A stretch of DNA of 15,637 nucleotides, from assembly GCA_026386995.1 (NCBI GenBank), contig JAPLMO010000495.1:1-15637 (forward strand), written 5' to 3'. The notes under the pieces were generated by a model. It was not told the DNA's origin and did not search any database. It saw only the letters and a program-made list of their open reading frames with translations. Shown piece after piece: positions 493-15,637 of this stretch. Positions within the stretch are counted from its first letter, which is position 1, and each line of letters begins with the position of its first letter. The stretch comes from Planctomycetota bacterium. GTDB lineage: Bacteria > Planctomycetota > Phycisphaerae > FEN-1346. The position numbers and the translations under genes are program-made.

Positions 493-552
493 TGCGCAGG
501 GGGGGCGCCCCTTGGCACGCTTGCGCCCGGGAAGTCTTCGCCAGAATTATGG

Positions 553-726: not shown

Positions 727-733
727 AATACGG
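716..733. repeat. 18-base dispersed repeat, copy 1
   Basis: CCGCCGCGCACAATACGG at 716-733 recurs identically and in the same orientation at 1919-1936. The two copies flank the msrBA gene. This copy covers the GTG start of the small minus-strand remnant. Confidence 0.7.
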
Positions 734-763
734 AAGTAGCGCTGTCATACTACAGTTTCATGC

Positions 764-791
764 GTGACGGGCCCCCGGGGCCGCGTATAAT
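764..791 (+). promoter_or_regulatory. Sigma70-type promoter for msrBA
   Basis: A perfect -10 hexamer TATAAT lies at 786-791. GTGACG at 764-769 is a four-of-six match to the -35 consensus, with a 16-base spacer. Transcription would begin near 798, giving a leader of about 20 bases before the ATG at 818 that contains a GGGAGA Shine-Dalgarno-like site (804-809). This is the clearest promoter in the window. Confidence 0.6.
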
Positions 792-817
792 TGCGAATGA
801 AGCGGGAGAGACGAACC

Positions 818-1825
818 ATGCGGTTCCGCTATCTTTGGGTGCTCGGCCTGCTGCCGCTCGTTGCGTGGGCCTGTGCGCCGCCGAATGATCCTCCAGAAGG
901 AGCAACCATGCGCAACAGAGATCCGAACGAGCCTCAACCGTCGGCCGGCCCTGCCGCATCCCCGGACCGGGCGATGCCGCCGCTCACCGACGTTGAGAAG
1001 CACGTCATCCTGGAGAAAGGCACCGAGGCGCCGTTCACGGGCAGGCACTGGAACACGTTCGAGCGCGGCGTGTACGTGTGCCGGCAGTGCGGCACGCCGC
1101 TGTATCTGTCGGACAGCAAGTTCGCCTCGGAGTGCGGCTGGCCGAGTTTCGACGAGGAGATTCGCGGCGCCGTCCGCAAGCAGCCCGATGCCGACGGCCG
1201 CCGGACCGAAATCCTCTGCGCCAAGTGCGGCGGGCACCTGGGCCACGTCTTCACGGGCGAGAAATTTACGGAGAAGAACTCGCGCCACTGCGTGAACTCG
1301 ACTTCCATCGTGTTCGTTCCGGAGGCCAAGTGGGCGCTGGAGCGGGCGATCTTCGCCGGCGGCTGCTTCTGGGGCGTGGAGCATTACTTCCACCAGGCCG
1401 GCGGCGTGCTCGTGGTCACGTCGGGCTACACGGGGGGCCACATCAAGAACCCCACATATGAGCAGGTCTGCACCGGCACGACCGGCCACGCCGAGTCGGT
1501 GGAGGTCGTGTTCGACCCGGCCCGCGTGTCGTTCGAGAAGTTGGCCAAACTGTTCTTCGAGATTCACGATCCGACGGAGGTGAACCGCCAGGGTCCGGAT
1601 GTGGGGTCGCAGTACCGCTCCGCGATTTTCTATCTGAACGATGAGCAGAAGAAGACCGTCGAGTCCCTGATCGCCCAACTCCGCGCCAAGGGCCTGAAGG
1701 TGGCCACCGAAGTGACGCCCGCCTCCACCTTCTGGCGGGCCGAGGACTATCACCAGGACTACATCGCCAAGCACCCCGAGCGCCCCTGCCACCTGCGCGT
1801 CAAGCGGTTCGATGATGCGCCGTAG
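818..1825 (+). CDS. msrBA: Fused peptide-methionine sulfoxide reductase, MsrB-MsrA, with export signal
   Basis: This bifunctional enzyme repairs both epimers of methionine sulfoxide in oxidised proteins, using thioredoxin-type reductant. The MsrB domain comes first, about residues 54-168, with zinc cysteines C88/C91 (VCRQC) and C134/C137 (CAKC) and catalytic C158 in RHCVNS. The MsrA domain follows at about 175-335, with catalytic C183 in GCFWG plus SGYTGG and TGHAE. Both active sites look intact. The ATG at 818 gives MRFRYLWVLGLLPLVAWAC, a short hydrophobic signal with a cysteine at 19 that could be lipidated (the lipobox is imperfect), so the product would sit in the envelope. A second ATG at 908 (residue 31) has a stronger Shine-Dalgarno site and would yield a cytoplasmic form. 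An upstream TTG at 791 lies inside the -10 box and is unlikely. The gene appears monocistronic, and its stop codon lies inside an inverted repeat. Confidence 0.93.
   Translation: MRFRYLWVLGLLPLVAWACAPPNDPPEGATMRNRDPNEPQPSAGPAASPDRAMPPLTDVEKHVILEKGTEAPFTGRHWNTFERGVYVCRQCGTPLYLSDSKFASECGWPSFDEEIRGAVRKQPDADGRRTEILCAKCGGHLGHVFTGEKFTEKNSRHCVNSTSIVFVPEAKWALERAIFAGGCFWGVEHYFHQAGGVLVVTSGYTGGHIKNPTYEQVCTGTTGHAESVEVVFDPARVSFEKLAKLFFEIHDPTEVNRQGPDVGSQYRSAIFYLNDEQKKTVESLIAQLRAKGLKVATEVTPASTFWRAEDYHQDYIAKHPERPCHLRVKRFDDAP
895..910 (+). promoter_or_regulatory. Internal Shine-Dalgarno and alternative start of msrBA
   Basis: AGAAGGAG at 895-902 sits five bases before an in-frame ATG at 908-910. This is a better ribosome binding site than the one before the 818 start. 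Initiation here would remove the signal sequence and leave both catalytic domains whole. Confidence 0.5.
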
Positions 1826-1878
1826 CGCGGGGCCTTGTGCCCGCGAACGACCACGCGGGGGATAAACCCCCGCGCTAC
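1822..1878. repeat. Nested GC-rich inverted repeat overlapping the msrBA stop codon
   Basis: The outer arms GTAGCGCGGGG (1822-1832) and CCCCGCGCTAC (1868-1878) are perfect 11-base complements. Inside, CGCGGGGG (1854-1861) pairs with CCCCCGCG (1867-1874) around the loop ATAAA. The TAG stop of msrBA (1823-1825) is part of the left outer arm. There is no T-run, so this is not a canonical intrinsic terminator on either strand, although it could slow or stabilise convergent transcripts. It has the look of an interspersed REP-like palindrome. Confidence 0.65.
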
Positions 1879-1898
1879 AATGCGAGAGCGGCCCGATA

Positions 1899-1928
1899 TG
1901 CGCGGCGGGTCGGGAGAACCGCCGCGCA
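1899..1928. repeat. Perfect 10-base stem hairpin between convergent genes
   Basis: TGCGCGGCGG (1899-1908) and CCGCCGCGCA (1919-1928) are exact complements around a 10-base loop. It sits in the msrBA/Gfo-Idh convergent gap and could act as a weak bidirectional 3'-end structure. No U-tract follows. Confidence 0.55.
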
Positions 1929-1936
1929 CAATACGG
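1919..1936. repeat. 18-base dispersed repeat, copy 2
   Basis: This is identical to 716-733. Its first nine bases also form the right arm of a perfect hairpin with 1900-1908. It lies just beyond the 3' end of the Gfo/Idh gene (stop at 1943-1945). Confidence 0.7.
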
Positions 1937-1942
1937 TCGGCG

Positions 1943-3394
1943 TTACAGTTCCCACCCCTTGCGGGGTTCGCGCCGGGTGAACTGGTTGAGTTCCGGCATG
2001 TTGGTGCACTTCATGTTCGGGCCGTCCCACTCGACCTTCTTGCCGGCGCCGGCCCGCATGGCGATGTGGCCAACGTACATCGCCTCAAGCAGCGGGCAGG
2101 CGAACGCCGCGAAGTCCGAGATGCACGGCTTGGAGGGCTCGCGGCAGGCGCGAAGGAAGTCGGCCCAGATACCGCCCTTGCCGATGCGCGGCAGCGTTTG
2201 CGCCGGCACGGGGAACTCCTTGTGCTTCTCCTCGGGGACGATCCGCGGCGCGGCGCCGTGCGAACCGGCGACCATCATGCCCTTCTCGCCGACGAAGATC
2301 GAGCCGGCGTTGCCGAGTTTGCGGCCGTACTTCTTCTCGATCTCAGCCGCCAGTTTCGGGCGGTTGGCGCCCGTCGTGTCCTCGTTGCCGCTCTCGGGGC
2401 CCACGGATGAGCCCTTCACGTGGCCGCCCTCGTACCAGTACACCTTCAGGGCCGGCCGGCCGGCGCGCGCGGGGAAGTCGTGGCAGATCGTCGTGAGCAT
2501 CGGGAACCGCTCGTCGCTCGGGTCGTCAATCTTCAGGGCCTCGACCGCCGTGGGGTAGCCGAGATGGAGGGCGAAGTCGATGGCGTCCCAGACGTGCGTC
2601 CCCCAGCCGCCCAGCGACCCCGTGCCGAAATCGTGGTATCCGTGCCAGTAGCCGGGGTGGCACCGCTTGTGATAGTCGCGGAAGGGCGCGGGTCCGATCC
2701 ACTCGTCCCATTGCAGGCCCGCCGGGACCGGCTCGCTGGGGGGCCGCGGGAAACTTCCGCCGAAGCGGTCGCCGAAGCCGTGCCAGGTGTGCACTTCGTT
2801 GACCGCGCCGATGGCCCCCGCCTGGAGGTACTCCGCGAGGGCCTGGTCGCCGCCCACGCCGATCCCCTGGTTGCCCATCTGCGTGGCAACCTTGCCCTTG
2901 CGGGAGATCTCGCCGAGGGCCCGGGCCTCGTGCATGTTGTGCACCAGCGGCTTCTCGCAGTAAACGTGCTTGCCGCGCTCGATGGCCATCTTACACGCCA
3001 GCGCGTGCTGGTGGTCGGGGGTGGCGATGACGACCGCGTCGAACTCCTTCTGGAATTCGTCGAACATCTTGCGGTAGTCGGTGAAGGTCTTGACCTTCGC
3101 GAGGTCCAGGTTGTCGAGTTTGAACTTCGCGGCGCTATCCTTCAGATACTTCAGCGACTTGGCCGACTGGTTCTCGTCGACATCGACGACGGCGGCCAAG
3201 TGCTCCATGGCCAGGTGCGGCAGGTGCGCGCTTGTGCCGCGCCCGCCGCAACCGATGAGAACCATGCGAAGTTTGGGGTTGGACGAGCCCGCCGCCAGAA
3301 CGGTCGGCCCGCGGACCAGTTGCGTGCCCGCCGCAGCAGCGGCGAGCAGAGCGGTGCTCTTCAGAAAATCGCGCCGATTGCAGCGGTCGGCCAT
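1943..3394 (-). CDS. Gfo/Idh/MocA-family oxidoreductase, Tat-exported
   Basis: This 483-residue protein is an NAD(P)-dependent sugar dehydrogenase or epimerase-type enzyme. A Tat signal (NRRDFLKS, residues 6-13, then an alanine-rich stretch to about 35) predicts folded export. The Rossmann domain begins at about 42, with VLIGCGGRG (45-53) binding the dinucleotide. The family signature CEKPL is at 146-150 and ATPDHQH at 124-130. The C-terminal substrate domain has GGWGTHVWD (262-270), the usual H/D region of this planctomycete-type subgroup. The ATG at 3394 is chosen over the one at 3424 because AAGGGGA lies at the right distance before it and the Tat motif follows at once. It is the last gene of the minus-strand series, 218 bases after rhaB, and may be separately transcribed. 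An A/T-rich patch at 3423-3432 offers a -10-like sequence, but no good -35 is seen. The exact substrate cannot be told. Confidence 0.92.
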   Translation of the reverse strand: MADRCNRRDFLKSTALLAAAAAGTQLVRGPTVLAAGSSNPKLRMVLIGCGGRGTSAHLPHLAMEHLAAVVDVDENQSAKSLKYLKDSAAKFKLDNLDLAKVKTFTDYRKMFDEFQKEFDAVVIATPDHQHALACKMAIERGKHVYCEKPLVHNMHEARALGEISRKGKVATQMGNQGIGVGGDQALAEYLQAGAIGAVNEVHTWHGFGDRFGGSFPRPPSEPVPAGLQWDEWIGPAPFRDYHKRCHPGYWHGYHDFGTGSLGGWGTHVWDAIDFALHLGYPTAVEALKIDDPSDERFPMLTTICHDFPARAGRPALKVYWYEGGHVKGSSVGPESGNEDTTGANRPKLAAEIEKKYGRKLGNAGSIFVGEKGMMVAGSHGAAPRIVPEEKHKEFPVPAQTLPRIGKGGIWADFLRACREPSKPCISDFAAFACPLLEAMYVGHIAMRAGAGKKVEWDGPNMKCTNMPELNQFTRREPRKGWEL

Positions 3395-3454
3395 GGGTCG
3401 GTCCCCTTGCCTTTCGCTATTCATTATGATAACCCGCGACTTTGCGCGGCTGGT

Positions 3455-3581
3455 CTCCGGGGCCTGTTGCCGAATTGCCGTTCATGTAGGGTGGGTGCTC
3501 TGCACCCACCATTTCCACGCGACAAAACGGCATTGGTGGGTGCATAGCACCCACCCTACATATTGGGCAACAGGCCCTCCG
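3455..3581. repeat. Nested inverted-repeat element between rhaB and the Gfo/Idh gene
   Basis: Terminal arms GGCCTGTTGCC (3461-3471) and GGCAACAGGCC (3566-3576) are perfect 11-base complements. An inner pair, 3484-3511 with 3534-3561, pairs over 28 bases with a single mismatch (3500/3545) around a 22-base loop. Within it, each half also forms a small GGTGGGTGC/GCACCCACC hairpin. The pentamer CTCCG lies on both sides (3455-3459 and 3577-3581), with one extra G on the left, and could be a target-site duplication. No coding frame of note is inside. It reads as a MITE-like or REP-like element, and as RNA it would form a long stem between the two genes. Confidence 0.7.
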
Positions 3582-3612
3582 TACCCGCCGCGCTATGTGC
3601 ATACGCTCCTCG

Positions 3613-4986
3613 TTACCTCGCCGGCTGGTACACCTTCACCGGAAACGCCTCGGCGATGGCCTTACGGAACTCGCTTATGTTCTTGAACACGCCGCACGCA
3701 CGCGCCTGGACGCAAAGGTTCCCGAGGGCCGTGGCCTCGACCGGCCCAGCGTAGACCGGGATGCCCACTTCGTCGGCGGTCATCCGGTTCAGGAGTTCCG
3801 CCCGGCACCCGCCGCCAACGACGTGCAGCCGCTGGAACCGCTTGCCCGTGACCTTTTGCAGGCCGTCCAGTTCGCGCTTGTACGCCTTGGCGAGGCTGAG
3901 GTAGCAGCATCGGGCCATGTCGCCGACGGTGCGCGGCAAAGGCCGGCCGCGCGCCGAGAGGTCGGCCTTGATCTCATCGAGCATGTTGACCGGGGCGAAG
4001 AAGCGGTGATCGTTCGGGTCGATGGTCTCGCTGAAGGCCGAGGCCTCGGCCTGGGCGGCGATCTCCGAAAACTCCATCGGACTGCCCTGCTCGGCCCACA
4101 TGCGGCGGCATTCCTGGATGAGCCACAGGCCGTTGATGTTCTTGAGGAACCGAATCTTGCCGTCCACGCCGCCTTCGTTGGTGAAGTTGGCCGCCTCGGC
4201 TTCCGGCGTGAGGACCGGATCGTCGAGTTCCGCCCCGATGAGCGACCACGTGCCGCTGCTCAGGTAGGCCCACTCGCCGCCATCAACGGCCGGAACGGCT
4301 GCAACCGCGCTGCCGGTGTCGTGCATCGCGGGCAGATAGACGGGCGTCTTGCCGCACGAGCCGGCCCGCGCGCCGGGCATCTGAATCTTGCCGAAGATTT
4401 TTTCGGGGAGGCCCAACGTGCGGATGAGGCCGGCGTCCCAGTCGCGCTTGCGGGCGTCCAAGAGGCCCGTCGTGCTACTTATGCTGTACTCTGCGGCCGC
4501 CTGGCCGGTGAGCATGAAGACGATGAGTTCCGGCATGAGGAGCATGCGATCGGCCTTCATAAGCATCTCCGGCCGCTTCATCCGCTCGGCCACCAGTTGG
4601 AAGATGGTGTTGAAGGTCATTTCCTGGAGGCCCGTCAGGGCGTACAAGTTTTTCTTCGGGATGAGGCGGTAGACTTCGGGCATGGCCTCCTGGTGGCGCG
4701 AGTCGCGGTAGGCGAACGGCAGGTCCAGGAGTTTGCCATCCTTATCGATGAGGCCGTAATCGACGCCCCACGTATCGACGCCGATGCTCTCGACCTGGCC
4801 GGATGCCGCGATGCCTTTCTTGACCTTCTCGACGAGTTCCTCGATTTCCCATCGCTTGCCGCCGCTAATGTCCTTAAAACCGTTCTCGAAGCGCGAGGTC
4901 TCCTGCAGAGCGATGCGGCCGCCCTCAATCGTGCCCACGATGGTGCGTCCGCTTGAAGCGCCCAGGTCCACGGCCAGAAATTTCAT
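3613..4986 (-). CDS. rhaB: Rhamnulokinase (FGGY carbohydrate kinase)
   Basis: This 457-residue cytoplasmic kinase would phosphorylate L-rhamnulose, or possibly a related deoxyketose such as L-fuculose, at O-1 with ATP. Family marks are the N-terminal phosphate loop LAVDLGASSGR (4-14), VDTWGVDYGL (70-79), HDTGSAVAA (222-230, D223 as likely catalytic base), SSGTWSLIG (243-251), and the rhamnulokinase-specific NEGGVDGKIRFLKNINGLW region (270-288). The length is that of a normal RhaB. The ATG at 4986 is set by an AGGAGG (4993-4998) six bases upstream. A longer frame to 5016 has no such site. The gene follows the small gene at 5023-5190 by 36 bases and the secreted hydrolases beyond it, suggesting that it uses the deoxysugar they release. 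No RhaA or RhaD partner is visible in the window. Confidence 0.93.
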   Translation of the reverse strand: MKFLAVDLGASSGRTIVGTIEGGRIALQETSRFENGFKDISGGKRWEIEELVEKVKKGIAASGQVESIGVDTWGVDYGLIDKDGKLLDLPFAYRDSRHQEAMPEVYRLIPKKNLYALTGLQEMTFNTIFQLVAERMKRPEMLMKADRMLLMPELIVFMLTGQAAAEYSISSTTGLLDARKRDWDAGLIRTLGLPEKIFGKIQMPGARAGSCGKTPVYLPAMHDTGSAVAAVPAVDGGEWAYLSSGTWSLIGAELDDPVLTPEAEAANFTNEGGVDGKIRFLKNINGLWLIQECRRMWAEQGSPMEFSEIAAQAEASAFSETIDPNDHRFFAPVNMLDEIKADLSARGRPLPRTVGDMARCCYLSLAKAYKRELDGLQKVTGKRFQRLHVVGGGCRAELLNRMTADEVGIPVYAGPVEATALGNLCVQARACGVFKNISEFRKAIAEAFPVKVYQPAR

Positions 4987-4992
4987 CTTCGT

Positions 4993-4998
4993 CCTCCT
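4993..4998 (-). promoter_or_regulatory. Strong Shine-Dalgarno of rhaB
   Basis: A perfect AGGAGG on the minus strand, six bases before the ATG at 4984-4986, decides the start of rhaB. Confidence 0.8.
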
Positions 4999-5022
4999 GC
5001 GATCATGCCACGCCACACCGCC

Positions 5023-5190
5023 TCACTTGGCCACCGGCCTTAGTTTGGGCGGCAGCGTAACCACCCGACGGCCATCCTTGTCTTCTCGTGACCTGGCGTC
5101 TTCGGCAATCGCGCGGATGTCATAGTTGAACTTCGCGGCGTTCTTCTGACGCCATTTCCGCACTTCCGCTACAATCGGATCGTCCTTCAT
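5023..5190 (-). CDS. Small antitoxin-like protein (55 aa), orphan
   Basis: The product begins MKDDPIVAEVRKWRQ and ends near RRVVTLPPKLRPVAK. This layout, with an MKxDPIVxEVxxxR start, a charged helical middle (KFNYDIRAIAEDA) and a VVxLPP-type end, is common among very small conserved proteins of uncertain role that often sit beside PIN or other toxin genes. It has no signal peptide or membrane segment. An AGAAGG lies about eight bases before the ATG at 5190. No toxin gene follows, since rhaB starts 36 bases downstream. Upstream, a 30-codon frame ends two bases before it, so the pair may be translationally coupled. It may be a leftover of a toxin-antitoxin pair now carried in the operon. Real coding is likely; function is unknown. 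Confidence 0.65.
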   Translation of the reverse strand: MKDDPIVAEVRKWRQKNAAKFNYDIRAIAEDARSREDKDGRRVVTLPPKLRPVAK

Positions 5191-5192
5191 CT

Positions 5193-5285
5193 CTAGCCTT
5201 CTAACAATTCTTCCCGCGTACATACCCACGGCAACTCGTAGCCGTGGCGCTCCACGGTACGCCGAATGGCCGGCAGCAACTCCAT
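5193..5285 (-). pseudogene. 30-codon frame just upstream of the small gene; possible gene remnant
   Basis: The frame runs from ATG (5283-5285) to TAG (5193-5195), and the next gene's ATG follows after two bases. The product reads MELLPAIRRTVERHGYELPW, then VCTREELLEG. It is charged and helical in style, and the frame stays open 15 codons further upstream. The codon pattern looks like coding sequence, but I do not recognise a family. The Shine-Dalgarno of the downstream gene is embedded in its last codons. It could be the surviving C-terminus of a larger gene or a small coupled peptide. The rest of the gap, 5286-5398, shows nothing else I can support. Confidence 0.3.
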
Positions 5286-5398
5286 GTTTGCAATGTGCCG
5301 GCAGTTCCACCTCTTCCGCGACGCGCTGGTGGCCTACTTCACCAACACCCCGCCCCATCACTGCTGTCCGTAAATCCGTGAACGGTTACCTTTTTTTA

Positions 5399-7228
5399 TC
5401 ACCAGACTTTGAGCACGAGCGGACCGGTTCCGGCATTCTCAAACGGCCCCGGTGCTGGATTCGTTTCATTTCTGCTCTTGCCGAAATAGTCGGTGTCAAC
5501 GCGAATCGGCGTGCCATCGGGGCGTTCGTAGGGCAGATTGGGGAGGGCCGCCTTGCCCAGCAGTTCGGTGGTCACGAGTTTGCGTGTTCTTTCGCCGGCC
5601 CAGGCTTTGTCGAACTTGACTTCCAGGTAGAAGCCGTCGGCCTTCTCGGCCAGTTTGAGCGCCGGATCGATCTCCGGTTTGACGAGCGGCTCTTTTTCGT
5701 GCTTGGACGGCTTGGCGCCTTTCGAGAACACGTTGCCGTCCATCCACACGGGCGACCTGGCCCCGTCGTATTGTCCCAGGTCGCCGCGCTCCACGAACAG
5801 ATTGTTGTAGTAGCGGTCGTCGCCGCCCGGGACGTTGCGGAGGCCCGCGACCTCCGTGGAGTGCGCCTTGTGGAACGGCGTCAAGCGACCCAATTCGGGT
5901 CGAAGCAGGATGCGCCCCGCCATCAGGTTGTGGACATAGGCGCCGCCTTCCGACATGTCGAGCACCGCTGTCGGGGAGAGGAAGATGTTGTTGTCCACCA
6001 GAAACGGGCCGTGATTCACTTCGACGAACAAGTCTTCGGATTGATTTTCGTGGAAGAGATTGGCGGTCACGCGCGTGCCCTGCGCCATCCAGTCCAGCCA
6101 GAGTCCGCGGCAGGTCCGGTAAATGTGATTGCGGCTGATCTCGGTATCAATGGCGGCGTGGAACTTGATGCCCGCCATCTCCGCGCCTGAGAACAACTGC
6201 CGGACATGGATGTCGTGGATGGTGTTGCCGGTCACAGTGCTGAACGCGGCGCCAAGGCTGCCGACGATGCCCGCTTGTTCGCAGTGCGAAATGGTGTTGT
6301 TGCGGACGACGTGGCCGCCGATGTTTTCCTTGGTCCAGGCGATGGCGTTTGCATGGCCGCGCTCGATGGTTTTGACGTAGCCCTCGGCGGAATTGGCCGA
6401 CGTGTTATCCCACTTGTCGCCGTGCTTCCCCAGCGCGATGCCCGAGCAAACCGAGTGGCTGACCACGTTGTTCTCGATGATCCAGCCCTTGCTCCAGTGG
6501 GTGCCGATCAGGCCGACCTGCTCGGCCGTTGGCGGCGCCCACTGCGTGGCCGCATGGCGCAGCGCGAACCCGCGCACGGTGATGTAGTTCATGCCCGGCT
6601 TTTCCGGATAGAAAACCGTTCGCCGCACGTTGATCTCCACCGGTTGCTCATTGGGATTGACGCCCTTGAACTGCGCCGAGATCGTGGTGTTCTCCTTATC
6701 CACCTCGCCAAACCAAAGCGGGGTGGCTCCCACAGGTTTGAGGACGTCGTCCAGTTTGCGCGCCTCGGCCAGCCATTCGCCGTTGAGATAGACGGCGCCG
6801 GTGTGATGCTGGCGGCCCCTGGCATTGAACCAGTCGCCGCGGATGAGGTCGCTGTAGGGATTGAAGGCGCCGAAGAACGCATTGGGAATGGTCACTTTCC
6901 AGACATCGTCCTGAACCTTCACCCAGTTCCTGACGGCTTCCGACCCCTTGATTTCGACCTTCTCGCCCGGTGCGGCTTGATAGACGATGCGCTTGGCGTC
7001 GGCTTCGCCCCCGCGCGGCGGGGCGATGCGTTCGCGGTAAACGCCTTCATGCACGGTGATGACGTCGCCCGGCTGCGCAAGGTCGGCGGCATGTTGGATC
7101 GTGCGGAGCGGGGCCGCCTGCGTGCCGGCGTTAGAGTCCTTGCCGCTCGGGGCAACGTGAAACTCGGCGGCGTGAGCGGCAACAGCGAGTGCGATGATGC
7201 CTGAGAACGTGATGGCTGCCATTTTCAT
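5399..7228 (-). CDS. Secreted right-handed parallel beta-helix protein, GH141-like
   Basis: This 609-residue protein has a signal peptide (1-20, cleavage near AHA|AEF). After it, EFHVAPSGKDSNAGTQAAPL (22-41) and the AADLAQPGDVITVHEGVYRE block (47-66) form the standard entry to parallel beta-helix carbohydrate enzymes. From about 215 to 430 come helix coils with asparagine ladders: IIENNVVSHS, HVVRNNTISHC, STVTGNTIHDI, TEISRNHIY, FLVDNNIFLS. Aromatic and acidic residues likely to line the cleft include GLWLDWMAQG (375-384) and SEDLFVEVNHG (397-407). The order of blocks resembles GH141, whose characterised members are an alpha-L-fucosidase acting on rhamnogalacturonan-II and a xylanase. A polysaccharide lyase cannot be excluded. 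The start at 7228 has GAGGAG six bases upstream. It lies 51 bases after the GH172 gene, as part of the operon. Fold is sure; family and substrate are inference. Confidence 0.85.
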   Translation of the reverse strand: MKMAAITFSGIIALAVAAHAAEFHVAPSGKDSNAGTQAAPLRTIQHAADLAQPGDVITVHEGVYRERIAPPRGGEADAKRIVYQAAPGEKVEIKGSEAVRNWVKVQDDVWKVTIPNAFFGAFNPYSDLIRGDWFNARGRQHHTGAVYLNGEWLAEARKLDDVLKPVGATPLWFGEVDKENTTISAQFKGVNPNEQPVEINVRRTVFYPEKPGMNYITVRGFALRHAATQWAPPTAEQVGLIGTHWSKGWIIENNVVSHSVCSGIALGKHGDKWDNTSANSAEGYVKTIERGHANAIAWTKENIGGHVVRNNTISHCEQAGIVGSLGAAFSTVTGNTIHDIHVRQLFSGAEMAGIKFHAAIDTEISRNHIYRTCRGLWLDWMAQGTRVTANLFHENQSEDLFVEVNHGPFLVDNNIFLSPTAVLDMSEGGAYVHNLMAGRILLRPELGRLTPFHKAHSTEVAGLRNVPGGDDRYYNNLFVERGDLGQYDGARSPVWMDGNVFSKGAKPSKHEKEPLVKPEIDPALKLAEKADGFYLEVKFDKAWAGERTRKLVTTELLGKAALPNLPYERPDGTPIRVDTDYFGKSRNETNPAPGPFENAGTGPLVLKVW

Positions 7229-7279
7229 TTTGCTCTCCTCATTTTCTGATCAGATGTGCAGGGTTCCAGTCACAGCGGT

Positions 7280-8341
7280 TCACGGGGCCGCGTAGTAATA
7301 GACGCAACTGCGGTACGGCACGTCGAGGCTCTTGCCTCCGACAAAGGGCTGGAGCGCGGGGGCCTTGCCCTTCCTGGCGCCGGCGTTGTACGGTTCACCC
7401 AGGTCGTGCTTGTAGGTCAGGCGGATCACGCAGGATTTTTTGAACGTGATCTTGTCCGTGTCGCGCGCGCGGACCATTGCGACAAGGGTTCCGCCTTTAG
7501 GCGTTTTCTCATGACGGACGATGGCTGAATAGAAGTCCGATTCGATTCCCTGGAAACCCCAGGAGTGACCGTAGAAATCCTCGCATCCGAGGCTCTCGCA
7601 GGTCGGCTCCTTGTCGCCGTCCAGGTAGATTTCGTGGTTCGCCTCGCAGGTTCCCTGGCCGTCGGCACACGATGGATGATCGCCTTCCAACTGGAGCGAA
7701 TGGGCGACGATGGCGCCCGGCGATTGGATGTCGCACAGCACCAGTTCTTCGTGGGGAAACTTGAAAGTCCCCTGCCGATACACGACCCTCAGATAGCCGG
7801 AATCTTTCGGGAGAGCCTTGACCTCATCCCACTGAACCTCCGTGTATCCCATGAGGTAGCGGTCGGTCGGATTCTCCACTTCGATCCGAATGTGCTTCTG
7901 AAACGGCATTGGGAGCCGGAAGTTGTGGGAGGCGCGAACCCGCGAGAAATAGATGGTGTGGTACGGCTTTGCCGCCGCCTGAATGTCGCCCAGGAAGTCC
8001 ATCAGCGGCATGTCGATGGCGGGCTTCTCCTGGCGATCGTACCAGACCCGAAGGAGGAGTTGGCCGGCATCACCGCCGGCGTAGTTGGATACGTGGAAGT
8101 TGGTCACGACGCCCGGCCCATCCTGGTCCAGGACCGTCACCTTGGAGTGCGGCGTCAGGGTCGGCGCATCGGGGTACTTGTCGAGCGTCCACGTCCGGGG
8201 AACGATGTGTGTCTTGGCGTCCGGGATTGCGGTAATCTTCTGCCAGCCTCCCGGATCGGTCTGGGCGGGCAACACACCCGCCGCCGCCAGCAAAGTTCCG
8301 GCGGCGATGAGTCCAACCACACTTCTTGCTTTCAAAGTCAT
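7280..8341 (-). CDS. DUF2961 protein, glycoside hydrolase family 172-like, secreted
   Basis: This 353-residue protein has a signal peptide (1-27, LPAQ then TDP). DUF2961 marks follow in order: DGPGVVTNFHVS (74-85), RVWYDRQEKPAIDMPLMDFLG (98-118), FRLPMPFQKHIRIEVEN (141-157), and EIYLDGDKEPT (237-247) followed by CEDFYG (253-258). E237 and E254 sit where GH172 enzymes carry their two acidic catalytic residues. The usual GTGTED reads ESLGCED here, so the loop is atypical. Characterised GH172 enzymes act on furanosides: difructose anhydride I, D-arabinofuranose and related sugars. They form hexamers through a jelly-roll-like fold. The length is typical for a single-domain member. AAGGAAGG precedes the ATG at 8341. 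It begins only 24 bases after the GH-A/GH43 gene ends, so the two are almost certainly co-transcribed. Confidence 0.88.
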   Translation of the reverse strand: MTLKARSVVGLIAAGTLLAAAGVLPAQTDPGGWQKITAIPDAKTHIVPRTWTLDKYPDAPTLTPHSKVTVLDQDGPGVVTNFHVSNYAGGDAGQLLLRVWYDRQEKPAIDMPLMDFLGDIQAAAKPYHTIYFSRVRASHNFRLPMPFQKHIRIEVENPTDRYLMGYTEVQWDEVKALPKDSGYLRVVYRQGTFKFPHEELVLCDIQSPGAIVAHSLQLEGDHPSCADGQGTCEANHEIYLDGDKEPTCESLGCEDFYGHSWGFQGIESDFYSAIVRHEKTPKGGTLVAMVRARDTDKITFKKSCVIRLTYKHDLGEPYNAGARKGKAPALQPFVGGKSLDVPYRSCVYYYAAP

Positions 8342-8365
8342 GGCAACCTTCCTTGTACCGCGATT

Positions 8366-10339
8366 CTATCTGATGGGCGCCGGCCTTGGCTCCCCGTCCA
8401 GGCCGAACTCGATTCGCAGGAGGCCGGGTCTTTCCTTGAACGGGGCATCCTTGTCGTTGCCGAAGAACGTGCTCCACCACTGCCCGCCCGTGTCCTTGAA
8501 GAACATATTGTGCCCGCCATGCGGGACCGCCAGGTAGCGGTCGCCGTAGGGGCCGTAGAGGTCCTTGGAACTGGCGACGTAGCAATGGTAGCGGTCGTCG
8601 GTGAAGTCCGCGCAAGACAGGTAATAGCGGCCGTTCGCCTTGAAGATGAACGCCCCCTCAAAGCCGACGCGGCCGGCGTTGGCGGGTTTCAGGAACCTGG
8701 GCTTCTCGGCCAAACCGCTCATATCGTCTTTCAGGCGCGCGATCTTGCCGTCCTGGTAGACGAAGTACGCCCTGCCGTCATCATCACAGAAGAGTGAAGC
8801 GTCTATCTCGCCGGTAAGCGGGCCGTCGGGCTTGATATCCACATAGGGTCCCTCGGGTTTGCCGGTGGAACTCTTGAGGATGCCGGTGCCCTGGTAGTTC
8901 ACGCAGTAGGCGATCCAGAACGTCTTGTTGAAGTAGTGAATTTCCGGCGCCCAGATGGCCTGATTCTCTCCCTTCTTCTTCTGCCACGTCATGTCCTTCT
9001 CGAACGACCAGATGAGGCCCAGCGGTTCCCAGGTCTTCAGATCTCTGGACTTCCACATCCGGATCCCCTCGTTGGTTTTCCACCAGGTGGGAGCGCCGGT
9101 GGTGCCTATGAGATAGTAGGTCCCGTCCGGGCCGACGCAGATGCTGGTGTCGCGCACCGGAAAATCGAAGAGCGGCTTGAGGCGGTTCGTGCCGGGGGCG
9201 TCGGTGAACTTGCGGACAAACGCCACCTCGTCCGCGTTCTTAGGCGAGCCGTCCCGCCGCAGCAGGTCGTGGAACCAAACTTTCGGTTCGGGCGCATCCT
9301 TCGGCGACCCCCACCCGTACTGACACTGGGTGCGGCCGTTGACCAGGCCCCAGTTGTAGCAGCCGACTTTCTCCTCCCTGAACAGGGGCAGTTCGGTTTC
9401 GTACTTGCTGCCCGTGGTCCGCGCCATCCATTCGGTGCAGATAACGGGCCTGCCGCGCTTCTTGAGATCGGCGATGCGGTTCTTCATGCCGGCATTGTCG
9501 CCATAGAAATGGAAACTGATCACATCCGAGAGTTCGATCTGCCTGTCGCTGAGTTCCTTTGTGCCGCCCCAAACGCCGATGGTCAAAGGCTGAGAGGGTT
9601 GGGCCTGGCGCGCCCAGTCGAACACCGCCTCGACGAGCGGCAGGCTCTTGTTGCCCATCCCGGAGTTGCCGGGTTCGTTGTAAAGGTCCCAGAGCACAAT
9701 TCGCCTGTCGCTGCTGAAACTGCCGACCATGTCCTTTACATACTTCTCCAACTCGGGCCACGCCGACTTGTCCGTCACGAGTTTCAAACCGGGGCTGGGC
9801 ACCCAGCGGCCGTTGGACTTACCCGGCACCGGGTCATCCTGTTTGCCGGGATAGGGGTCGCGGCCGGCATCGAAGGCGCAATCGTCGAAGAGGACCGGCA
9901 TGACGCTGATCCCGTGTTTTTCGGCGATTGACAGGAATTGGTCGAAGCGGCTCTTGAGGCCCTTGGGGTCCTGTTTCCAAACGATGTATTGGATGAAGAC
10001 CCGGCAGGAGTTGTAGCCTAGCCCTTCGGCCCAGGCCAGTTCGCGGTCGATGGTTTTGGGATCGAAGGTCTCGGCCTGCCACATTTCGGTGTCGTTCACG
10101 GCGGTGCTGGGCACGAAGTTGCAGCCCATCAGCCAGGGCTGCCGGTCGTACCACTGCCGGGCTTGCTCTTCCGTCATCGGGGCGCGGATGGAGGCGGCAG
10201 GCGCAGCCTGCTGCGCGGGGGCAACGCCGGGGACCACCGCGAGCGGCGAGAAAACAAGACTAAGAAACACCGCTCGTCGGCTCAGGCGGGCGAGGATTGC
10301 CGCCAGGTTACGGATGAAGTGCGAATGCGTGCATTGCAT
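8366..10339 (-). CDS. Two-domain glycoside hydrolase: GH-A clan TIM barrel fused to GH43-like beta-propeller
   Basis: This 657-residue exported protein has an N-terminal hydrophobic segment (about 23-43, ending APAQQ). Residues 56-365 form a TIM-barrel hydrolase of clan GH-A type. LWDLYNEPG (216-224) supplies the acid/base E222, ISFHFYG lies at 274-280, and VICTEW (299-304) supplies the nucleophile E303. Such domains are often labelled 1,4-beta-xylanase without proof. Residues 385-657 form a five-bladed GH43-type propeller with all three expected acids: D397 (VRDTSI), D513 (EIDASLF) and E561 (FEGAFIF), plus HGGHN (608-611 region). Both active sites look intact, so two linkages may be cut by one polypeptide. 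GGGAG precedes the ATG at 10339. It sits between the DUF6288-like gene and GH172. GH43 members commonly cleave arabinofuranosides, xylosides or galactosides; the substrate here is open. Confidence 0.9.
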   Translation of the reverse strand: MQCTHSHFIRNLAAILARLSRRAVFLSLVFSPLAVVPGVAPAQQAAPAASIRAPMTEEQARQWYDRQPWLMGCNFVPSTAVNDTEMWQAETFDPKTIDRELAWAEGLGYNSCRVFIQYIVWKQDPKGLKSRFDQFLSIAEKHGISVMPVLFDDCAFDAGRDPYPGKQDDPVPGKSNGRWVPSPGLKLVTDKSAWPELEKYVKDMVGSFSSDRRIVLWDLYNEPGNSGMGNKSLPLVEAVFDWARQAQPSQPLTIGVWGGTKELSDRQIELSDVISFHFYGDNAGMKNRIADLKKRGRPVICTEWMARTTGSKYETELPLFREEKVGCYNWGLVNGRTQCQYGWGSPKDAPEPKVWFHDLLRRDGSPKNADEVAFVRKFTDAPGTNRLKPLFDFPVRDTSICVGPDGTYYLIGTTGAPTWWKTNEGIRMWKSRDLKTWEPLGLIWSFEKDMTWQKKKGENQAIWAPEIHYFNKTFWIAYCVNYQGTGILKSSTGKPEGPYVDIKPDGPLTGEIDASLFCDDDGRAYFVYQDGKIARLKDDMSGLAEKPRFLKPANAGRVGFEGAFIFKANGRYYLSCADFTDDRYHCYVASSKDLYGPYGDRYLAVPHGGHNMFFKDTGGQWWSTFFGNDKDAPFKERPGLLRIEFGLDGEPRPAPIR

Positions 10340-10376
10340 GGGATACTCCCTTGAAGCAGGTACTATCTGTTTGCAT

Positions 10377-10395
10377 GGTCCTCAGGCCGAGGACC
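10377..10395. repeat. Hairpin in the gap between the DUF6288-like gene and the GH-A/GH43 gene
   Basis: GGTCCTC (10377-10383) and GAGGACC (10389-10395) are perfect complements around a five-base loop. It lies in the transcribed strand gap, about 38 bases before the GH-A/GH43 start. It has no U-run, so it is more likely a processing or stability element than a terminator. Confidence 0.45.
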
Positions 10396-10442
10396 TCTAG
10401 AATGCGACGGCAAGTGCCTACACCCCGTGATGAGACCTCCTG

Positions 10443-12956
10443 TCATTTCCGCCGATTCGCATTGGGCTGGAGCGGTGCAATGCTCCGCAACTCGGGCTGC
10501 GTTGTGGCGGCTTCAATGGCCTTGATGGCCGTTTCGACTGCGGCGACTCGCCGATTATTGAGTTCGCCGCCGGGAAATTCCCCCTTCTTGCACTGATCGT
10601 TCAGGGCCACGATCAACTCTTTCAACTCCGGCACCGCCTGGCGGGCGGCCTTGCCATAGGTCACCAACTCCTTCATGATCTCTCCCGTCCTGCTCTCGCT
10701 GCCGTGGCCGCCCTGGGTTTTCGCGAAGATGATGCCCGCTTCGATGCCCTCTTTGAAGTGATATTTCGTCAATGCCTTGAATCCGCCCATGCGGATCTCG
10801 TTGCCGAACATCGTGTCCGCCGGGCACCGCGTCTTGACGGCAGCCAGTATGTCCGGCGCCAGCGCCTGCACATCCTCCACGGTGAGCCGGTGCTCGAAAA
10901 GGTCTCTCAGCGTGGCCCGCGCCATGCCGTCCGCGTTCCTTGAAACAGCCCGGATCGCCGGGTAGAGCAGTTCGGGATCGACTTCCTTGATGGAATGCCG
11001 CAACAGTCCCTGGAACAGGGCCGCAGCCAGTTCGCCGTGCGTGAGTTGGATTGGATCGTCCCATACGATCGGCTGGAGGGGCTCGGCGGTTTTGGCGACC
11101 GCCCTGAGCATGTCGGGGACGACTGGTTTCGCCGTATCGCCCATGTTCTTGAGGGCATTCGCCGCCTTGAGGCGCAGCCAGCGGTCTTCGTGGGTGAGCA
11201 GACGGACCAATACGGGCAAGGCTTCCGCACTTTTGATGTAGCCGAGTGTTTCGCAGGCTCCCTGGCGGACATGCGCATCTCTGCCTTCCGCCAAAGCGAT
11301 CAGTTGGGGCACCATCGCCTTCGCCTCGGGACGCTTGGCGAGTTCCTCCGCCGCCCAACCGCGGGCGACCGGCGACCAGTCGCCCAGCGCGGCGAGGAGT
11401 TCCTCCGTGCTCCTGGCCTTGCGGTCCAGATCGAAGCGGCCGGAGGCGATGGCCTCGGCCACGTCCTTCTTGCTGAGCCAGATTGCCTGATTCGCGTCCT
11501 TGCCGGTGATGCAGAGTTTCTTCAGGGGCAGGGAATACGTGAGGACATAGGTGGCCGTCGGGCTCAGGCCGCAGTAACTGCTCTTGCCGTAGTAGGTGTT
11601 GTCGTCCGTCCTGCCGGCTCCGTATTGTTCGCCGCCGTCGTAGGTGAACGAACCGTCGCAGCGCCGCACGAGGTCCAGGTGCCATGAGGCTTCCTTGATA
11701 AAGGCCGTCGTCGCGGCAGGTCCGCCGGTATTGGCGCCCAGCGCGCCCCACAGATAACTGAATCCCTGGCCGGTGTGTCCGTATTCCCGGTTCTTGTAGG
11801 ACGCGGTGACCATCTTTGCGAAAAACTGCGTCTCCCTGATCCGGTTTCCCTGAACGGCAAACAACACGGCGGCCATGGCGTTCTTGCCGTTGTTGTCGTG
11901 GTACGGCCACGGCAGGTGTTCGCCGTAAGGAATCGCCCCCTTGTCCACGAAGTAGCCGAAGAACCTGGAGGCTCTTCCGATGGCGGGATCGATCTCCGGA
12001 TCCTGCACGCCGCACTTCTTGCCCATGACGATTGCGATGTTGCCCACCAGTCCCGCCGCGTTCACGGGGCCGTAGGGAGGGATCGACCCGTGGAGTTTGC
12101 CCTCGGGCGACGGGGGTGCAATACCATGCCCGAAAGTGCCATACATGCCCTGCCCCTTGGCGAGGGTGATCGTGTATTCATTGATGGCGTGCAGCACTTC
12201 CTTGTCGCCGGTGAGCAGGTAATACTCGCAGAGGAAGATGTTCCGGTATCCCCAGTCCCACACCACCATCCCGTCTTTCAATTCCAGTTTCAGCGTCTGG
12301 GGAGCCATCTTCCGGGCAATCTCCCGCACTCTGGGCAGGTAGTCGGGATTGCCGCTGGCCATCAGCGCGAGGCCGTTCACCGCTCCCCACAGGCCATTCT
12401 CCAGCGGCTCCTTCTCCAGCACTTTGCAGGCGTCCTCGAGGATCAGTTTCGACTTGGGGCAATTGTATGGCGCGGTGTCGCTGTAGGTCCCCATGACTCT
12501 CAGTTTGAGTTGCACCTCTTCGGTCTTGCCCGCCCGCCAGCGGGTCAGCTTCAGGATGCCTTTATTGGCTGCCTTCTCGGCTTCCTGAATTGCCATTGCG
12601 ATGCTCTTGCGGGCGTCGTCCGTGAACAGTTTGCCGCCGGCGCCGAGGATAACGTCGTCCACTTTCATCACGCCGTCCGCCGGCGACTTTGCCCCGACAT
12701 GCGTGACCAGAATCTGGCGGCTGGCCGTCGTCGTCCGACCCTGCACGCTCTCGAGGAAGTTGTCGGGCCTGGTATAAATCCACCCGCGAAGCCCCGTGGC
12801 GCCGAGATTGTAGGTCAACTCGCGATCGACCGTGTTGCTCTGAGTAAGATCCGGCGGCACCCGCGGCGGCTCAGCGACAAGTTGACTGCCGCATGCCAGC
12901 GCGATGGCGACAACGAGGGAGGCTGCGCACAGACGTGTTTTTCGCATCTTTCGCAT
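10443..12956 (-). CDS. Secreted DUF6288-type protein: PDZ, alpha-alpha toroid and HEAT repeats
   Basis: This 837-residue protein begins with a signal peptide (MRKMRKTRLC, then hydrophobic to about 28). The segment NLGATGLRGWIY (50-61) opens the mature protein. Residues 77-153 form a PDZ-like domain (ILVTHVGAKSPADGVMKVDD at 82-101, then LGAGGKLF). Residues 165-480 are rich in paired helices with conserved aromatics (WDWGYRNIFLCEYYLLTGD 233-251, GHTGQGFSYLWGALG 393-407, ATYVLTYSLPLKKL 468-481), suggesting an alpha-alpha toroid like those in lyases and glucuronyl hydrolases. Residues 516-612 and beyond carry HEAT-type repeats (HVRQGACETLGYIKSAEALP, WLRLKAANALKNMG). I recall this architecture as DUF6288, which has no known function. 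AGGAGA lies about seven bases before the ATG at 12956. It sits 66 bases after the esterase. A role in binding or cleaving the same polysaccharide is inferred from context only. Confidence 0.85.
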   Translation of the reverse strand: MRKMRKTRLCAASLVVAIALACGSQLVAEPPRVPPDLTQSNTVDRELTYNLGATGLRGWIYTRPDNFLESVQGRTTTASRQILVTHVGAKSPADGVMKVDDVILGAGGKLFTDDARKSIAMAIQEAEKAANKGILKLTRWRAGKTEEVQLKLRVMGTYSDTAPYNCPKSKLILEDACKVLEKEPLENGLWGAVNGLALMASGNPDYLPRVREIARKMAPQTLKLELKDGMVVWDWGYRNIFLCEYYLLTGDKEVLHAINEYTITLAKGQGMYGTFGHGIAPPSPEGKLHGSIPPYGPVNAAGLVGNIAIVMGKKCGVQDPEIDPAIGRASRFFGYFVDKGAIPYGEHLPWPYHDNNGKNAMAAVLFAVQGNRIRETQFFAKMVTASYKNREYGHTGQGFSYLWGALGANTGGPAATTAFIKEASWHLDLVRRCDGSFTYDGGEQYGAGRTDDNTYYGKSSYCGLSPTATYVLTYSLPLKKLCITGKDANQAIWLSKKDVAEAIASGRFDLDRKARSTEELLAALGDWSPVARGWAAEELAKRPEAKAMVPQLIALAEGRDAHVRQGACETLGYIKSAEALPVLVRLLTHEDRWLRLKAANALKNMGDTAKPVVPDMLRAVAKTAEPLQPIVWDDPIQLTHGELAAALFQGLLRHSIKEVDPELLYPAIRAVSRNADGMARATLRDLFEHRLTVEDVQALAPDILAAVKTRCPADTMFGNEIRMGGFKALTKYHFKEGIEAGIIFAKTQGGHGSESRTGEIMKELVTYGKAARQAVPELKELIVALNDQCKKGEFPGGELNNRRVAAVETAIKAIEAATTQPELRSIAPLQPNANRRK

Positions 12957-13022
12957 GACACTTCTCCTATGGGTTCGTGCTATCCTGTCGGCCTGTTTCC
13001 GCTAAAGCACAACTGCCTATCT

Positions 13023-15637
13023 TCAGGGGGACGGCTTCCGGGGGAGAATCGGGACCTCGCAGAAGGTGAGCGCCGCGATGCCGTTTTCGCCGTACAGCAG
13101 GTTCTTGATGTCCCACCTCTTGTCCACAAGATAGGTGATCGTTTTCGCCGTGGCGTCCGCCGCCAGATTGAGTTTGACCACGTTTCCCGACACGGCGCCC
13201 GAGGTGACCTTACCCGCTGTCCCATCCAGGTAAAACTGACTGGCCAGGGCGTCGGTCCAGACCATCGGCTGGTCGAACTCCAGCGCGATCTCATTTTTCT
13301 TGTCGCTCGTATAGTATGCCTTCTTCAGGTCAGGAGCCGTGATGGGCTTGTCGAATACTTTCCCGTAATTGTCCCGCTCCACCAGAGGGATCATCAGGCG
13401 CGCCATTTCCGCGTAGCCGGCGGCCGGATAGTGTGCCGGACCGGGCGGCTTGATGCCCAGGGTGGACATGACGCTCATGTGCGAGTAGAGGCGCGGCAGG
13501 AGCCTCTGCACATCACGCAACTTGTCGCTATGCCTTGTGCCGCCCTGGCTACAGGAATTGGGCCAGATCTGGTAGAGGTAATAATGCTTGATATTGGGCA
13601 TGTCCTGCTTCCATGCCGCCGTCATGTCCACGAAGTACTGCTGGTACGTTTCACAACCGTAGCCGCCATCGGGACCGTCGGCGCCCTGGTCGGCCTCGCC
13701 CTGATGCCACAAGACGCCGCGGATGCCGTGGGTCAGCCTGGCTTGCTCGACGCGCCACAACAGGCGCCCGTAAATCGTGGCGATGTCGGCATGATTGGCC
13801 GGGTTCGGCATGTGCTCGTCAATTCGCGTTCCCCCGGCCGCTCCGTTGATGATACACACCGGGATTTTCTGACCTTCGACCAGGCTTCTGGCAAGATCCA
13901 GGCCCCAGTATCCGACCTCCCATGCGCCGCCCTTCCTGCGCACCGCGTTGCCCCATCCCTTGCTGACATCCCCGCCCATGGAACCGAAACTGCGGATCCA
14001 GTCGCTGGCGTAGTCACACTCGTCGTTTCCGAAATCAGTCGCTACCGCGTTGGATTGGCCGTCAATCACGTAGGCATCGCCGCACACAAGATTGGCGGCC
14101 GTATTCAGAACCGTTTCGATGTTCCCGCTCTTTGATCCGAACTCCACCCTGTACTTGATGAGGCCCGGCTTGAGATTGACTGCGAACGCATAGGCCTTGT
14201 CCGCCTTGGGTGTCTGGCGTTCGGTGGTGATCAGTTTGTCGTCGGCATAGACCTTCAGGAAGACAGAGTCGGCGGCATCGCTGAGTGTGCCGTTGTAGTA
14301 CAGCGTGCCCTCGTTCTTGTCGTCACGGGCATAGAACTGGTTGTTGACGGGTTTCTCGTCCTTGTCAGGCGTCCGCTGCACCCAGGCATCTTTCTGCGGT
14401 TCCTTGACCACGATCTGAAACGACTGGTTCGCCGGCTTGCCGCCGTTGCTCACCGTCACCGTCACGGTCAGATTTCCGCTGTTCTGCGCGCGATTGAGCA
14501 GTAGCTTGCCGGGCACCACCTCCTTGATCACCGCCATGCCCGAGGCGCTCCAGTGATAGTTCAGTTCACCGGCACCCTTCGCCTGCATCGCTTCCAGATT
14601 GGCGACCTGCGGCACCACCTCGATGGTCTCCCGGCCATCCCACGTCGCCGGTGCTTTCAGAGTGAATACGGGTTCCGGAATATCCTCCTTGATCGTGACG
14701 GGGATGTCAAAGAAGCTCTTCACTTGATTGGCGTAGATCGCCTTGAACTGGAGGATGAACGATTGGTCGCCGGCCACGCGGCCGGCGGTCAACGTGTAGG
14801 AAAACCTGTCCACGGCCTCAACGGTTTCCTGTCCGCCTCGTTTGATGAGCCAATAGACCTTCTGCGCTCCGCCGGCCTTGGCCGTCACCGTGGCGCTCTT
14901 GCCTTCCAAGACGGAGAGCATCTTCTGCGAGACCGAAACGCCCGTGCCGGGCTGCACCAGTGACCCGACCAGGGTTTGCAGGGGCTTCTGGTTCTCGTAT
15001 TGCATCCTCACCCATTCGGCGGAGCGCGTCACTTTGGAAATGCGCACCTCGTCAATGTCTCCGACAAATCTGTAATTGCTGTACCATCCGCCAATGTACA
15101 TCCTCGCCGGGCTCTTGATCGCCAGCGGGGCCCCCGTGGAGGTCGAAACGCCGTCGAGGCGTCCATTCACGTAGACCCGCGACTCGCCGAGCTTGAAGGT
15201 GTGAATCACGTGAATCCACTGGGACATGGGGAGCGCGCTGCCGCCCGCAACGTCCGCGCCCGAGAAATAGCATTCTATCTTAATGTGTGGCGGGCTGAAG
15301 TACTGCATCATCACCTTGCCCTGCCCCGCCTCGTTTCCCCAGGCAAGAACGGTCGCGTTCGGCTTATCGCCCCTGAGCCAGGCTTCCGAAGAATGGGGAT
15401 TAGAGCCGACAGGATAGGTGGTGATCTTTTCCCCGCAGTTGATCCCCTTGCCTGCGTCAAAGCGCCGGCTTTTACCAATGATACCCGAAGAAGATACCGT
15501 GCCCGTATCCTTCGACTCCACCGTGCCGACCTCATCCTTCACCGGATCGTCCATGTGGAATACGCTGAGGTACCCATTGGATTCATTGAACACCGCTGAT
15601 CCGCTGGATTCGCTGGCGGCGTCGGCCTTGCCCCAAT
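13023..15637 (-). CDS. Multidomain secreted acyl esterase (SASA/SGNH type) with LamG and Ig-like domains; 5' end outside window
   Basis: The frame stays open to the window edge, giving 870 visible residues. The first visible residues, WGKADAASESSGSAVFNESN, look like the end of a DUF2341 domain. A LamG/jellyroll domain follows to about 215 (WIHVIHTFKLGESRVYVNGR, then GDIDEVRISK). PKD- or Ig-like domains fill about 225-415. The esterase domain, about 510-760, has VIDGQSNAV with nucleophile S528, INGAAGGTRID (596-606), VLWHQGEADQG (641-651) and PAHYPAAGYAEMARL with H735. The C-terminus (about 770-870) is an SbsA-like Ig domain (EIALEFDQPMVWTDAL). It would remove acetyl or similar esters from polysaccharide outside the cytoplasm; sialic acid is only the family's name-giving substrate. 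The usual acid three residues before the histidine is not seen. The signal peptide and promoter lie outside the window. It is the first visible gene of the operon. Confidence 0.87.
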   Translation of the reverse strand, partial: WGKADAASESSGSAVFNESNGYLSVFHMDDPVKDEVGTVESKDTGTVSSSGIIGKSRRFDAGKGINCGEKITTYPVGSNPHSSEAWLRGDKPNATVLAWGNEAGQGKVMMQYFSPPHIKIECYFSGADVAGGSALPMSQWIHVIHTFKLGESRVYVNGRLDGVSTSTGAPLAIKSPARMYIGGWYSNYRFVGDIDEVRISKVTRSAEWVRMQYENQKPLQTLVGSLVQPGTGVSVSQKMLSVLEGKSATVTAKAGGAQKVYWLIKRGGQETVEAVDRFSYTLTAGRVAGDQSFILQFKAIYANQVKSFFDIPVTIKEDIPEPVFTLKAPATWDGRETIEVVPQVANLEAMQAKGAGELNYHWSASGMAVIKEVVPGKLLLNRAQNSGNLTVTVTVSNGGKPANQSFQIVVKEPQKDAWVQRTPDKDEKPVNNQFYARDDKNEGTLYYNGTLSDAADSVFLKVYADDKLITTERQTPKADKAYAFAVNLKPGLIKYRVEFGSKSGNIETVLNTAANLVCGDAYVIDGQSNAVATDFGNDECDYASDWIRSFGSMGGDVSKGWGNAVRRKGGAWEVGYWGLDLARSLVEGQKIPVCIINGAAGGTRIDEHMPNPANHADIATIYGRLLWRVEQARLTHGIRGVLWHQGEADQGADGPDGGYGCETYQQYFVDMTAAWKQDMPNIKHYYLYQIWPNSCSQGGTRHSDKLRDVQRLLPRLYSHMSVMSTLGIKPPGPAHYPAAGYAEMARLMIPLVERDNYGKVFDKPITAPDLKKAYYTSDKKNEIALEFDQPMVWTDALASQFYLDGTAGKVTSGAVSGNVVKLNLAADATAKTITYLVDKRWDIKNLLYGENGIAALTFCEVPILPRKPSP

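Follow-up and report, generated by a model that had tools for sequence, protein, structure and literature searches.

A SASA-type esterase and DUF6288 form a recurring pair beside a glycosidase set in a planctomycete contig

Introduction

Is a run of co-directional genes for polysaccharide breakdown in a planctomycete one conserved operon, or does a smaller unit within it recur from genome to genome? We addressed this question in a 15.6-kb stretch of DNA from Planctomycetota bacterium (contig JAPLMO010000495.1, positions 1 to 15,637; hereafter the window), in which a SASA-type carbohydrate esterase, a DUF6288 protein, glycosidase-type proteins, a RhaB-like sugar kinase and a Gfo/Idh/MocA oxidoreductase are encoded on one strand. 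We found that the esterase and DUF6288 form a conserved core, occurring together far above background and sometimes fused, and that the exact layout around them is local, with parts of the carbohydrate theme recurring elsewhere. With a probability of about 0.6, the window represents one SASA esterase–DUF6288 module heading a locally assembled, exported glycosidase set, of a kind seen in genomes of planctomycetes and Verrucomicrobiota (PVC). Complex polysaccharides are broken down without SusC/D in Verrucomicrobiota and probably in their PVC relatives, which makes the sugar loci of these bacteria difficult to spot. DUF6288 would help to find such loci and would also be a candidate new enzyme family, and the module together with this family is the part worth following.

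Results

The esterase–DUF6288 pair

Genes were taken from six-frame open reading frames (ORFs), and ten window proteins were scanned against Pfam and NCBIfam. The cluster genes are all co-directional:

13023-15635, minus strand: LamG and SASA (SGNH-type) carbohydrate esterase, N-terminus cut by the window edge (PF13385, 1.4e-17; PF03629, 1.6e-10)
10443-12956, minus strand: DUF6288 protein with HEAT repeats (PF19805, 2e-141; HEAT_2)
8366-10339, minus strand: two-domain glycosidase, N-terminal GH-A and C-terminal GH43 (PF00150, PF04616)
7280-8341, minus strand: DUF2961/GH172-type furanosidase, putative (PF11175, 1.1e-32; 7v1v, 4.8e-10)
5399-7228, minus strand: GH120 beta-xylosidase-like beta-helix protein (PF21258, 3e-29; 3vst, E = 3.9e-163)
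3613-5016, better start 4986, minus strand: RhaB-like FGGY sugar kinase (TIGR02627)
1943-3424, minus strand: Gfo/Idh/MocA oxidoreductase with a twin-arginine translocation (TAT) signal (PF01408, PF10518)

A DUF6288 alignment scan with one genome per species gave 155 encoding stretches, the best 80 of which were kept as loci. Their titles are mostly planctomycete, verrucomicrobial and lentisphaeral, and a few (Klebsiella, Nealsonbacteria) look mislabelled. The esterase recurs adjoining DUF6288 in many of these loci. ORF calling gave same-strand neighbours upstream in 46 of the 80 loci and downstream in 38. With two DUF6288 paralogues dropped from the upstream set, 20 of 44 upstream and 7 of 38 downstream neighbours carried SASA (Fisher p = 1.8e-9 and 0.004), compared with 2 of 85 ORFs drawn at random from the same loci at a distance of at least 5 kb, although SASA is abundant (52 to 124 matches in four such genomes) and these control ORFs allow for abundance only roughly. 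When close homology alone was counted, the window-type esterase stood upstream in 12 of the 64 loci having more than 1.5 kb of upstream sequence. The esterase match ends 27-165 bases before DUF6288 in twelve loci and starts 334-535 bases after it in five, the latter being overestimates because the query esterase lacks its N-terminus. Furthermore, esterase and DUF6288 distances correlate within 18 pairs (r = 0.60, with 0 of 2000 permutations as high), a correlation that kinship may partly explain.

Fusions of the two parts were also seen. A single open frame runs over DUF6288 and SASA in two of the 80 loci (L055, L060). Of the 120 relatives listed for a divergent DUF6288 protein, eight also have SASA in their chain and one has an alpha/beta hydrolase; SASA comes first in P0133 and P0135 and last in P0199. 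No SASA was found in the 120 relatives listed for the window DUF6288 protein. The window esterase belongs, with LamG, to the SASA carbohydrate esterases (PF03629); what sets this type apart is that it is partnered by, or fused with, DUF6288.

Two loci illustrate the variety of settings. In L090 (G013:C15:1-19900) two DUF6288 genes flank a LamG-SASA esterase gene, and further along come a gene of prolyl-oligopeptidase type and a third DUF6288 frame, a giant one. L087 (G019:C279:45500-65000) encodes on one strand GH27-like, GH29, DUF6288, WD40-like, sulfatase, SASA, DUF6288 and LamG proteins.

Conservation of the layout

The original prediction had described seven closely spaced minus-strand genes from the esterase to rhaB. 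The genes, the strand and the gaps among the first five (66, 103, 24 and 51 bases from esterase to GH120) agree with it, but 412 bases, counted to the ATG at 4986, precede RhaB. Its own refutation test, a neighbourhood comparison, went against it: the seven-gene layout was not conserved in the genomes seen, where the esterase–DUF6288 pair alone was kept, and that layout is largely refuted there.

When the 80 loci were searched with the window proteins and matches above 60 bits were counted, GH120 was found in two (L005 and L036, approximately 0.2 and 3.1 kb from DUF6288), GH-A/GH43 in one (L032, 29% identity, GH-A part only) and Gfo/Idh, at 27-36%, in four. GH172 and RhaB matched in none of the 80, GH172 being sought by the window protein with no whole-locus DUF2961 family scan, and a DUF6288–GH172 co-occurrence was rejected on this count. 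In the closest locus found (L001, genome G001), DUF6288 is 86% identical to the window protein and an esterase homologue (73%; DUF2341, LamG and SASA, 1003 aa) lies directly upstream, and after the pair come two sulfatases and an oligopeptide-type ABC transporter. The other window proteins had no match in the 20 kb read around this pair. GH120 (84%) and RhaB (75%) of G001 are on contigs C195 and C41, each without other window proteins; searches of that genome for GH-A/GH43 (E ≤ 1e-40) and GH172 (E ≤ 1e-30) gave no match.

Across 294 genomes of the G001 phylum at E ≤ 1e-40, GH120 occurred in 8, GH-A/GH43 in 20 and RhaB in 81; among the matches listed, none for GH-A/GH43 spans both domains. GH172 was found in 0 of 294 at E ≤ 1e-30, in a search that had no positive control and whose threshold passes over weak relatives, the 94-bit one in L106 among them. 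Genomes G024 and G301 have GH120 plus GH-A or GH43 matches on different contigs. Around GH120 itself we found a weak GH172 relative (26%, 94 bits) approximately 3.5 kb away in L106, a weak Gfo/Idh (30%, 74 bits) approximately 1.2 kb away in L107, and a polysaccharide deacetylase and GH29 fucosidase following it in L105.

The DUF6288 family and its predicted fold

Counts of DUF6288 matches at E ≤ 0.001, which may include partial ones, ranged from 1 to 50 per genome in the 24 genomes from which 25 chosen loci came. The highest count came from G019, a 12.6-Mb assembly of uncertain purity, and the next five genomes had 30, 29, 24, 23 and 22, so that those with 22-50 matches are G019, G005, G013, G002, G017 and G003. 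The DUF6288 cut-off was passed by 36 of 288 genomes of the G019 phylum, some by the PDZ-like part only, and by none of 14 control genomes. The family is patchy. The three giant members scanned (2425-3444 aa; from G017, G019 and G013) have Big, cadherin-like, YDG and fn3 domains, and some of them also MBG and PA14. A divergent relative of approximately 1,390-1,506 aa is present in 11 of the 288 genomes, and a protein 89% identical to it is named uncultured Akkermansia. Akkermansia-type copies of 1468-1482 aa lie at L126:3935-8365, L127:5132-9580 and L128:4461-8867, the first of them matching a PDZ-like domain and showing what looks by eye like a membrane anchor.

Metagenome proteins P0002-P0008 are 86-98% identical to the window DUF6288, and the wider set P0002-P0025 covers 84-98%. 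P0009, P0043, P0048 and P0107, which bear Planctomycetota, Pirellulales, Verrucomicrobiota and Kiritimatiellaeota labels, are 78-87% identical to window-type DUF6288; such closeness across phyla is unusual and perhaps reflects transfer or mislabelled bins.

The window protein matches PF19805 with 472 bits against a gathering score of 26.3. Its confident AlphaFold2 models (pLDDT 88.7 and 90.5) predict a signal-like helix, a PDZ-like domain (approximately 48-151), an (alpha/alpha)6 barrel (approximately 158-492) and HEAT repeats (approximately 496-816), with the conserved barrel residues mostly on the long-loop face. H394, K358, R431, E346, E391 and D434 are among the conserved residues. When the whole protein was searched, the rows listed by Foldseek consisted of HEAT/armadillo-type repeat proteins and complexes, and in VIA-align the barrel stood out clearly in the first three rows only; the barrel was then modelled alone and searched. 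The modelled barrel has the (alpha/alpha)6 fold of GH76, a family whose catalysis uses an Asp-Asp pair. Compared with the GH76 alpha-1,6-mannanase (6shd) and MmpH (7qsj), DUF6288 has approximately 12% identity and extra PDZ-like and HEAT domains, and neither a GH76 nor a squalene-hopene/terpene cyclase family match was found for it among Pfam matches at E ≤ 0.001. PDZ domains were also seen on a GH29 fucosidase (L105:8716-11091) and a beta-helix protein (L036:4912-7878); they may be attached to sugar enzymes repeatedly in this group of bacteria.

The glycosidases

The beta-helix protein had been taken as GH141-like, an assignment displaced by GH120: PF21258 matches with 102 bits against a cut-off of 27, and both the insertion domain and the beta-helix were found. 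Residues 22-483 plus 472-609, nearly the whole protein, align with XylC of Thermoanaerobacterium saccharolyticum (3vst), with D379 and E403 opposite chain residues 382 and 405, which we take to be the catalytic positions. The two proteins thus share the beta-helix with its GH120 insertion domain and both aligned carboxylates; the window protein differs in adjoining GH172 and GH43, and its activity is a prediction. In a 2019 review, GH120 is given an Asp nucleophile and a Glu acid/base, and both characterised enzymes named there are beta-xylosidases (PMC6887791). From its sequence, the window protein is a GH120 member and candidate beta-xylosidase, which would indicate xylose/arabinofuranose.

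In the GH-A/GH43 protein, PF00150 matches at 108-331 (1.6e-9) and PF04616 at 389-650 (4.8e-37), the latter identifying the GH43 domain. Matches in the PDB were weak, the best being 7jvh (GH43_12, 1.6e-11). GH43 enzymes use an Asp/Asp/Glu catalytic set, for which candidate motifs were seen by eye only. The DUF2961 protein belongs with GH172 by its family match, and its E233, E254 and D255 align with E270, E291 and D292 of alphaFFase1 from Bifidobacterium dentium (7v1v), both catalytic Glu included, although the similarity is low. According to PMC8605356, alphaFFase1 mutants at the aligned residues lost most activity, E270/E291 being catalytic. The protein is a putative furanosidase.

By eye, signal-like N-terminal stretches are present in the DUF6288, GH43, GH172 and GH120 proteins; the esterase start lies outside the window.

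The kinase and the oxidoreductase

The kinase ATG at 4986 is preceded by AGGAGG. TIGR02627 (rhamnulokinase) is the best of the models matched, but at 460.9 bits the kinase falls below the cut-off of 527.95. The gap ahead of it shrinks only if a small ORF, or its GTG extension to 5361, is taken as the seventh gene:

5023-5190, minus strand: 55-aa ORF in the GH120-RhaB gap, a candidate only, read from the sequence, no family match

Neither its long form, searched in Pfam and NCBIfam at E ≤ 0.001, nor its short form, searched in Pfam at E ≤ 0.01, matched any family. A decayed-looking stretch, judged by eye, lies ahead of the small ORF 5023-5361.

A rhamnose reading of the cluster, also proposed before, depends on the kinase, which is 412 bases off, below the rhamnulokinase cut-off (461 against 528 bits) and on another contig in G001. 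A rhamnose pathway was rejected, with no other rhamnose gene among the ten window proteins and no other window protein near the G001 RhaB, whose neighbours were checked by window-protein matches without annotation. RhaB is 188 bases from Gfo/Idh, whose position beyond rhaB and predicted export, through the TAT signal, bear out what had been said of it. The nearest NCBIfam model to the latter is the glycoside 3-dehydrogenase NF058561 (297 bits, far under the cut-off of 750), and it could be part of a 3-keto-glycoside route. Both proteins are probably neighbours rather than cluster members.

Promoter-like and terminator-like sites in the window occur about as often as expected by chance (3 for a mean of 2.8, and 12 for 15.2) and so neither support nor exclude one transcript. 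Rfam and tRNA scans of the window gave nothing above chance.

Discussion

We propose that the esterase would take acyl groups off a polysaccharide and that the DUF6288 barrel would then bind or cleave the exposed glycan, while its HEAT and PDZ parts may anchor it to other proteins or to the surface. The glycosidases adjoining the pair would determine the substrate. With GH120 and GH43 (beta-xylosyl/arabinofuranosyl) and GH172 (furanosyl) predicted here, the target is most likely an acetylated polymer bearing xylose or arabinose. A bolder proposal, to which we give less than even odds, is that DUF6288 founds an undescribed (alpha/alpha)6 carbohydrate-active family, hydrolase or lyase, that partners SASA esterases and in some PVC bacteria recurs, heavily expanded, in polysaccharide loci, marking them much as SusC/D does in Bacteroidota. 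The Akkermansia-type divergent relative would offer a cultivable test system for DUF6288.

As originally predicted, no SusC/D, ABC transporter, isomerase, aldolase or regulator was found among the ten window proteins. The layout had been called distinct from classical polysaccharide utilisation loci (PULs). The SusC/D pair is indeed missing from the window, but Verrucomicrobiota are already known to have PUL-like clusters that lack SusC/D, in which glycosidases, sulfatases and carboxylesterase-related genes are likewise placed together (PMC8857213); the lack is thus not in itself a new layout type. Compared with those clusters, the esterase–DUF6288 pair is a recurring core here and the glycosidase set is xylose/arabinofuranose-like. 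No mention of DUF6288 or PF19805 was found in the literature searched, PMC8857213 included, and nothing was found there on an Archangium squalene-hopene cyclase or on sialate O-acetylesterase in Planctomycetes. Overall, the earlier observation was partly confirmed and its interpretation partly supported: the carbohydrate-degradation theme has support, a conserved dedicated operon does not.

Among other explanations, the pair could remodel the cell's own surface glycans (capsule, S-layer or holdfast), with DUF6288 a non-catabolic surface scaffold or binding protein. The Big, cadherin-like, YDG and fn3 domains of the giant proteins fit this, as do the lack of a fixed glycosidase partner and the Akkermansia-type relative of 1476 aa, which when judged by eye has an anchor-like segment and whose neighbours do not match the window esterase. 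We nevertheless regard it as unlikely, since neighbours are often degradative enzymes and sulfatases, as in L087, and up to 50 matches per genome suit many substrates better than one cell surface. That the barrel stands on the terpene-cyclase side of the same superfold, acting on lipids or as an inert toroid, is improbable given the fusion and adjacency of DUF6288 with carbohydrate esterases and glycosidases.

Some evidence leans towards the earlier operon and weighs against a locally assembled set: GH120 is scarce, in 8 of 294 genomes, yet stands near DUF6288 in L005 and L036, so the link may exceed chance, and GH29, weak GH172 and weak Gfo/Idh neighbours accompany GH120 in L105, L106 and L107, respectively. 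One conserved operon for an acylated polymer with furanose side chains and rhamnose or fucose, RhaB and Gfo/Idh included, is nonetheless very improbable, for although the single strand, the 24-103-base gaps, the compatibility of GH172, GH43 and esterase with such a polymer and the presence of GH29, GH95 and GH78 near other DUF6288 copies favour it, the near absence of the glycosidases and RhaB from the 80 loci, their dispersal or absence in G001 and the gap ahead of RhaB all oppose it.

Two further genes complete the window:

791-1825, plus strand: MsrAB
1-492, plus strand: radical SAM protein, end only
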